Shown: positions 7,413 to 7,748 of the stretch, piece after piece | Numbering within the stretch: position 1 is the stretch's first letter | Layout of the letters: the number at the start of each line of letters is the position of its first letter | IMG/VR virus record: IMGVR_UViG_3300050821_002954 | Location: 1-38,538 of that record | Strand: one strand, 5' to 3' | Length of the DNA stretch: 38,538 nucleotides | Source of the DNA: a virus | The notes under the pieces: generated by a model | Databases searched by the model: none | Told to the model about the DNA's origin: nothing | What the model saw: the letters and a program-made list of their open reading frames with translations, nothing else | Program-made: the position numbers and the translations under genes

Positions 7413-7748
7413 TCATGCCGCCTCGTCAAAACAGCTCAGCCGCCACTCGGCAAACGCCATCGCCTCGGTGTCAGTCTGGTAACCGAAGGGTTGGAGGTTC
7501 GAGTCCTCCCAGGGGAGCGCTTTTCCCATCAGCCAACTAACCGGCACCCCAGTAGCCAGCGCCCACGCATTGAAGGTGATCCGGCGCGGTTCGCGGTGGC
7601 CCTTCTCGGCGTTGATGATCGTGTTGCGGGACACGCCGATCCTCTCGGCCAGCTCATCCTGCTCTAGTCCCGCGTACTCGCGGGCGATGCGCAGTCGGTG
7701 GCGCACCAGGATAGGCGGAACATTGCCCGACTCGTATGCACTCGTCAT
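7413..7748 (-). CDS. rep: Cro/CI-type HTH immunity repressor with attP in its 3' end
   Basis: A 111-residue protein. HTH_3 fold at about residues 13-70: LVRHRLRIAREYAGLEQ, DELAERIGVSRNTIINAEKG, then AWALATGVPVSWLMG. Residues about 77-91 (ALPWEDSNLQPFGYQ) are encoded antisense to a tRNA 3' half; WEDSNLQPFG is a well-known translation of that tRNA segment. The protein ends in FDEAA. In integration-dependent immunity (BPs/Brujita-type mycobacteriophages) integration truncates the repressor, removing an ssrA-like C-terminal tag and stabilising it; the layout here fits that model. The HTH would survive truncation. ATG 7748 is 7 nt after a possible -10. Confidence 0.85.
   Translation of the reverse strand: MTSAYESGNVPPILVRHRLRIAREYAGLEQDELAERIGVSRNTIINAEKGHREPRRITFNAWALATGVPVSWLMGKALPWEDSNLQPFGYQTDTEAMAFAEWRLSCFDEAA
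7475..7518 (+). other. attP core: 3' half of a tRNA gene (tRNA-Asn-like)
   Basis: Plus strand reads anticodon-stem 3' strand CCGAA, variable loop, T-stem GGAGG, loop TTCGAGT, stem CCTCC (7493-7509), acceptor CAGGGGA (7510-7516), discriminator G. The acceptor implies a partner UCCCCUG, as in bacterial tRNA-Asn (UCC.CUG..CAG.GGA-G). The 5' half is absent, so it is not a tRNA gene; it would restore the host tRNA after integration. The exact crossover and the tRNA identity need the host sequence. Confidence 0.75.

Follow-up and report, generated by a model that had tools for sequence, protein, structure and literature searches.

The window analysed here, the virus record IMGVR_UViG_3300050821_002954 over its whole length of 38,538 bases, very probably represents a temperate actinobacteriophage in its lytic (attP) form; Mycobacterium is the likeliest host, and the genes and att site of the phage suggest an integration-dependent immunity switch. 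This type of switch is already known; here it comes with an extra gene cassette and with a stop codon taken from the host anticodon. The record belongs to a tailed phage and is possibly incomplete. The assignment is made because PHROGs searches matched the large terminase, portal, scaffold and major head protein at the right end and primase/polymerase and exonuclease farther left. A glycosyltransferase/glucosyltransferase gene pair (27342-29663; phrog_854 and phrog_8858) lies between the replication and packaging genes. The features of the switch region are listed in Table 1.

Table 1. Features of the repressor, attachment site and integrase region of the window
Feature	Position	Strand	Evidence
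Tyrosine integrase, 285 aa, end SEAAS	5366..6223	-	PF00589 E=2.9e-21
Small ORF D, 48 aa	6390..6536	-	no significant relative
Small ORF C, 69 aa	6530..6739	-	no significant relative
Small ORF B, 94 aa	6774..7058	-	no relative found
Small ORF A, 90 aa	7100..7372	-	no relative found
Sixth of six promoter-like repeat copies, immediately behind rep; ATG at 7372 follows after 5 bases	7378..7407	-	repeat search
Immunity repressor, phage (long) form, 111 aa, end CFDEAA	7413..7748	-	HTH_3, phrog_2328, relatives
22-residue C-terminal extension, predicted to be lost on integration, end FDEAA, ssrA-like	7416..7481	-	in-silico attL, AA enrichment
tRNA-Asn-like 3' half, tRNA positions 32-74	7476..7518	+	41/43 identical, E=4.8e-12 (blastn vs tRNA-Asn)
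Codon 90, TAC in attP, predicted TAA after integration (antisense of host anticodon loop)	7479..7481	-	in-silico junction
attP core; the tRNA-Asn of Mycobacterium G515 and G093 has the same 31 bases	7480..7510	+ (tRNA sense)	alignment
Palindrome TTGCGTAATTACGCAA, candidate repressor operator	7769..7784	.	sequence; role inferred
TTGCACAACTACGCAA, second (variant) copy of candidate operator	7831..7846	.	sequence; role inferred
Divergent small HTH_17 protein, excisionase/RDF-like or Cro-like	7868..8062	+	PF12728 E=9.2e-10, phrog_7506 E=1.8e-8

The repressor ORF (7413-7748, minus strand) matches HTH_3 (E=3.3e-11) and phrog_2328, a family labelled 'transcriptional repressor' (E=7.4e-25). Its relatives in GenBank, from Gordonia and Mycobacterium phages, are mostly labelled immunity or transcriptional repressors. 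Residues 1-73 are 70-75% identical to annotated immunity repressors, and the best matches are mostly limited to these residues, which is the conserved part to be expected if a variable att site makes up the remainder of the gene.

The attP core lies in frame within this ORF, a feature of integration-dependent immunity, and repressor codons 77-91 are the antisense of the 3' half of a tRNA-Asn(GTT). ARAGORN and Rfam found no complete tRNA at the repressor 3' end because only half of one is present. The window departs from the host 3' half at two bases. They are the central position of the anticodon, which reads GTT in the host tRNA-Asn and GGT in the phage attP, and a base of the acceptor stem, where pairing with the host 5' half becomes T-A in place of T-G. 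tRNA-Thr, suggested by the GGT of the window, was rejected as a target, since the acceptor and T arms match tRNA-Asn, and ARAGORN assigns a hybrid with GGT retained to tRNA-Thr, which would miscode. A chance similarity to a tRNA was ruled out by the 41/43 match together with the prophages of related integrases found in tRNA-Asn. The cores nearest to that of the window are those of the genomes G093 and G515, with 1 mismatch in 34 bases; G093, whose mismatch is the acceptor-stem base, was the best among the 301 genomes of the family searched, and G515 has the same 3' half as G093. The tRNA-Asn of G515 is not an untouched attB, because a prophage has introduced or rebuilt its 3' half. The exact 34-base core had no match in genome_contigs or viral_contigs, and the exact host tRNA is therefore not in these sets. 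A pattern scan of viral_contigs gave no other attP site with the same anticodon change; the attR of G468 has GGT, as does the attP of the window.

When the window was joined in silico to the tRNA-Asn of G515, the resulting attL encoded a repressor of 89 aa, ending in ...LPWEDSNLQPFG, and its hybrid tRNA was called tRNA-Asn(gtt) by ARAGORN, that is, an intact tRNA was rebuilt. The effect of this junction is visible in both reading frames. The shortened repressor ends in ...WEDSNLQPFG, and the 22 residues ending in FDEAA are lost. When the exchange was placed to the left of the anticodon mismatch, the tRNA was called tRNA-Thr(ggt); a working lysogen should therefore need an exchange to the right of 7479, and such an exchange would thereby also create the repressor stop TAA.

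The original prediction for this region had placed an attP core inside the repressor 3' end, antisense to a tRNA 3' half at 7475-7518. The core is where it was expected and the tRNA half stands, with its start moved by one base (7476-7518); the host tRNA, whose identification had been proposed as a check, is tRNA-Asn(GTT), to which the stretch corresponds at positions 32-74 in 41 of 43 bases. The range given for the truncation, about residues 77-91, holds and can now be narrowed to 89 residues, and the in-silico attL agrees with the further expectations that the HTH is kept and that the FDEAA end, which is present as described, is removed.

That the window integrase targets tRNA-Asn is suggested most strongly by six prophages that carry related integrases and lie in tRNA-Asn. 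The integrase is confirmed as a tyrosine integrase by PF00589, and its end SEAAS is only tag-like. It is 46-48% identical to the integrases of prophi79-1, Typha and cluster G-type phages and 65-75% identical to five Mycobacterium prophage integrases. Among 396 genomes of the genus Mycobacterium, 25 had a match at E<=1e-66, and the best 7 of these 25 were examined. In six of the seven (G515, G409, G468, G481, G542 and G577, the six best matches, 57-75% identity), int lies 82-413 bp from a core of 34-37 bp that is common to the tRNA-Asn of the same genome. Both prophage ends are on one contig, about 46-52 kb apart, in G515, G468 and G577, and the two core copies are on different contigs in G409, G481 and G542. 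The seventh genome, G391 (integrase 55%), had no core common to its tRNA-Asn and its int locus. An attB over the 3' end of a host tRNA that is rebuilt at attL, obtained in silico for the window, is thus seen in six prophages.

In five of these six prophages, the antisense ORF stops at tRNA positions 35-37, the anticodon, with the ends DSNLQPFG (three), DSNQEPIG and DSNHQPSD; the ORF of G542 runs in another frame and stops at tRNA positions 12-14. The antisense ORFs of all six resemble HTH proteins, as judged by eye, and G391 and G093, whose antisense ORFs lack this look by eye, were excluded from the prophage counts. Rejoining attL and attR gave a longer protein in each of the six, ending in YRSAA, YSRAA, RFVA, LALAA, RDSAA and LSDAA. 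The window repressor itself had no match at E<=1e-10 in the 11 genomes searched; the six integrases of the window type are paired with other repressors. At the sequence level, these prophages show what appears to be one att junction common to different repressors.

The same arrangement occurs in real prophages that encode relatives of the repressor. A complete tRNA lies antisense over the repressor 3' end in nine of 11 such loci in bacterial genomes; of the two others, L012 is a short contig and L010 carries, at this place, a partial 5' half resembling tRNA-Lys. The nine tRNA-bearing loci and a prophage on a viral contig (L038) made up the ten loci in which the position of the stop was determined. 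The repressor stop fell within the tRNA in all ten, at tRNA positions 35-37 in five, so that the shortening by a stop at attL, predicted for the window at 89 aa, is seen in prophage relatives. Two closely alike Rhodococcus prophages (L011 and L014) lie in tRNA-Asn, their repressors end in ...DSNQEPFD-TAA, and their attR carries TAC, the same TAC/TAA change as in the window. Rejoining attL and attR lengthened the repressor in nine of nine prophages, and the ends so obtained were VA, AA, AAAA, AAA, VA, AS, TA, AA and AA.

Such ends set the two forms of the repressor apart. A C-terminal AA was found in 20 of 28 phage-form repressors, a hand-assembled list whose members are partly related and not independent. 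Among 52 neighbouring CDS, drawn from seven phages, there was 1 with this end (Fisher p=1.6e-11). The ends AA, VA, TA or AS occurred in none of 15 prophage-form repressors and closed the longer repressor restored in 15 of 15 rejoined prophages; this wider pattern was picked after the data had been seen, and the AA count is the fairer measure. The FDEAA end is similar to, and not identical with, the canonical ssrA end. Degradation of the long form has been demonstrated for the BPs repressor in the part of PMC4557955 available, and we infer by analogy that the long form encoded by the window would be degraded as well.

The region between the repressor and the integrase is larger than in relatives. 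From the repressor stop to the int start it spans 1189 bp; this distance is 51-409 bp in the relatives that allowed it to be measured. The original prediction had noted four small ORFs and promoter copy 6 between the repressor and int (5366-6223, minus strand), all of which were found again, and the layout accordingly departs from the compact BPs-type subtype, in which rep and int are adjacent and co-transcribed. Excerpts of PMC8092301 indicate that adjacency does not define the wider integration-dependent class. For the Pfam and PHROGs searches, ORF A was taken from 7366, ORF B from 7106 and ORF D from 6596; Pfam, PHROGs, PADLOC and phage searches gave no function for the four ORFs. A role in defence was dropped after 0 matches in PADLOC and 0 in phage searches. 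The promoter-like repeat, TTGACATGTCCCCACAATGGGCGTACAGTC, is present in six near-identical copies in the window (2031, 2264, 2721, 2969 and 5160 on the plus strand, 7407 on the minus strand), where none would be expected by chance. An ATG follows within 5-6 bases in five of the six, and the copy at 2264 has ATC, as if each repeat drove a small, almost leaderless gene. The consensus of the first five copies, from which copy 6 differs, had no match in viral_contigs.

Both candidate operators are in the region between the divergent repressor and HTH_17 genes, and the palindrome is absent from the promoter-like repeat. A motif like the TTGCGTAATTACGCAA palindrome also precedes rep in the locus L002. 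Genes at the same place as the HTH_17 gene are labelled 'excise' in Dmitri, Doggs and Bipper, and the product could also be Cro-like. After integration, the cassette would remain with int at attR, which may allow the lysogen to express int independently of the repressor.

From these features, we suggest the following course of events. In the free phage, the 111-residue repressor would be marked for proteolysis by its ssrA-like FDEAA tail, and lysogeny would not be held. The tyrosine integrase would act on attP and the 3' half of the tRNA-Asn(GTT) gene in the host, exchanging strands at some point within 7480-7510. The 3' half of the tRNA at attL would then come from the phage, and the tRNA-Asn of the host would remain functional. 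Reading antisense through the tRNA, the repressor frame would find UAC replaced by UAA, which is the antisense of the host anticodon loop, and would end after 89 residues. This form, with its HTH retained and its tail gone, should be a stable and active repressor. What is left of the tail would pass to attR, along with the promoter copy, the four small ORFs and int.

Three other explanations were weighed against this switch. It is unlikely that an att site in the repressor is used while the truncation is irrelevant to immunity, both forms being active and the AA ends incidental. Some repressors of the integration-dependent class are without ssrA-like tags in the passages available of PMC8092301, which would fit this explanation, but it leaves unaccounted for the strong enrichment of AA ends in phage forms, their absence from the 15 prophage forms, and the fact that different repressors in one tRNA all regain such ends when rejoined. 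A relic, in which the tRNA-like stretch is a dead attP or resembles an antisense tRNA by chance, with integration at another site or none, is very improbable. The unmatched exact core and the use of several different tRNAs by relatives of the window repressor are in its favor; however, 31 contiguous bases are identical, the match over 43 bases has only two mismatches, and these are the very base that removes the stop and a change from a T-G to a T-A acceptor pair. tRNA-Asn is, moreover, the exact target of the closest integrases.

The remaining explanation concerns the spacer and is compatible with the switch proposed here, not exclusive of it. It is quite possible, at somewhat below even chances, that int is outside the control of the repressor promoter and that the region is mainly a cargo cassette expressed in lysogeny, so that the switch would be set by integration alone, without a rep-int operon. 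The place of promoter copy 6, 5 bases before the ATG at 7372, fits this arrangement, as do the confinement of both operator palindromes to the rep/HTH_17 region and the gap of 1189 bp, well above the range of relatives. Against it, the PADLOC, Pfam and phage searches assigned no function to the ORFs that would be the cargo.

Among known systems, BPs (cluster G) shares with the window an attP core in rep that is antisense to a tRNA 3' end, and an ssrA-like end of the phage-form repressor, according to the parts of PMC4557955 and PMC9262239 available; by the same sources, the C-terminal residues lost number 33 in BPs and 22 here. A host base makes the stop in BPs too, and in the window the change is from a Tyr codon to TAA (PMC9262239, in part). 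The window differs from BPs in using tRNA-Asn and not tRNA-Arg and in the distance of about 1.2 kb between rep and int, which holds four ORFs and a promoter. It also has a divergent Xis-like gene, whereas the available part of PMC9262239 describes BPs-type systems without an evident RDF. The proposal of a BPs/Brujita-type logic is thus supported at the level of sequence, with paired attL/attR and two repressor forms in relatives. Excerpts of PMC8092301 describe the M. abscessus prophages MabB, MabC, MabH, MabK, MabN and MabO as integration dependent, with a loss of 20-35 repressor residues and, in four clusters, a stop made by the first bacterial base; tRNA-Asn is not named for these prophages in the excerpts. 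According to the Fig. 3 legend of that paper, their int is adjacent to rep or 3-5 genes away. The layout of the window, which had been held to go beyond the adjacent rep-int pair, is indeed more complex and is unusual among the measured relatives, yet it is not new in kind. GMA5 has one extra ORF in its rep-int region (PMC5559632, in part). The closest named repressors, those of Bipper, Wizard, Opie, Dmitri and Doggs (52-75%), end in AA in their phage forms; their rep-int gaps are 56-409 bp, with one small gene in Opie and Dmitri. The six Mycobacterium prophages described above, with a core-int distance of only 82-413 bp, have no cassette of the size found in the window.

Among relatives that have both a matching repressor and a matching integrase, the closest is L030 (IMG/VR 3300036790_000126; integrase 72-73%, repressor 67-68%), with a rep-int gap of 149 bp. 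At 5392-5447, the 3' part of its rep lies antisense to the 5' half of tRNA-Asn, positions 1-55 (92.9%), and not to the 3' half, with an extra D-loop base; if this base were absent, rep would end at GCC AAT TGA, and its presence carries the frame on to ...VPMAA. On this one contig, the same switch seems to have been built on the other half of the tRNA, which would then be rebuilt at attR. Two further loci deserve mention. L122 (IMG/VR 3300044838_000031) has an integrase 73% identical to that of the window and several small ORFs upstream; nothing like tRNA-Asn was found in the locus, and the record contains no match to the window repressor. L002/L029 (IMG/VR 3300005529_000049) encodes a repressor relative (70%) with the tail ...DLDRAVS; neither a tRNA-Asn likeness nor a downstream integrase was found within the locus, and this is perhaps another mode of lysogeny.

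The anticodon is marked in the BPs site in the Fig 3 legend of PMC9262239, without a claim that it serves as the stop, and the available literature passages on integration-dependent immunity, tRNA-Asn attB and attP hold no statement of this idea. We tentatively propose that the anticodon of tRNA-Asn (and tRNA-Lys) is a ready antisense UAA, and that the int/att module built on it is a portable switch to which varied repressors have been joined, all in one frame (...DSNLQPFG-stop). If this is true, the middle base of the anticodon would do a double job: it would remove the stop in the phage, so that the tail is translated, and it would penalise an exchange on the wrong side, because the host tRNA-Asn(GTT) would then receive the Thr anticodon (GGT). 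Anticodon-as-stop would explain the fitness of NTT-anticodon tRNAs for such a switch. The window is a well-supported case, with the tRNA named, of phage immunity that is conditional on integration, and one-base predictions follow from it that can be decided at the bench. The occurrence of different repressors with one tRNA-Asn junction suggests that such switches are assembled by the exchange of modules.
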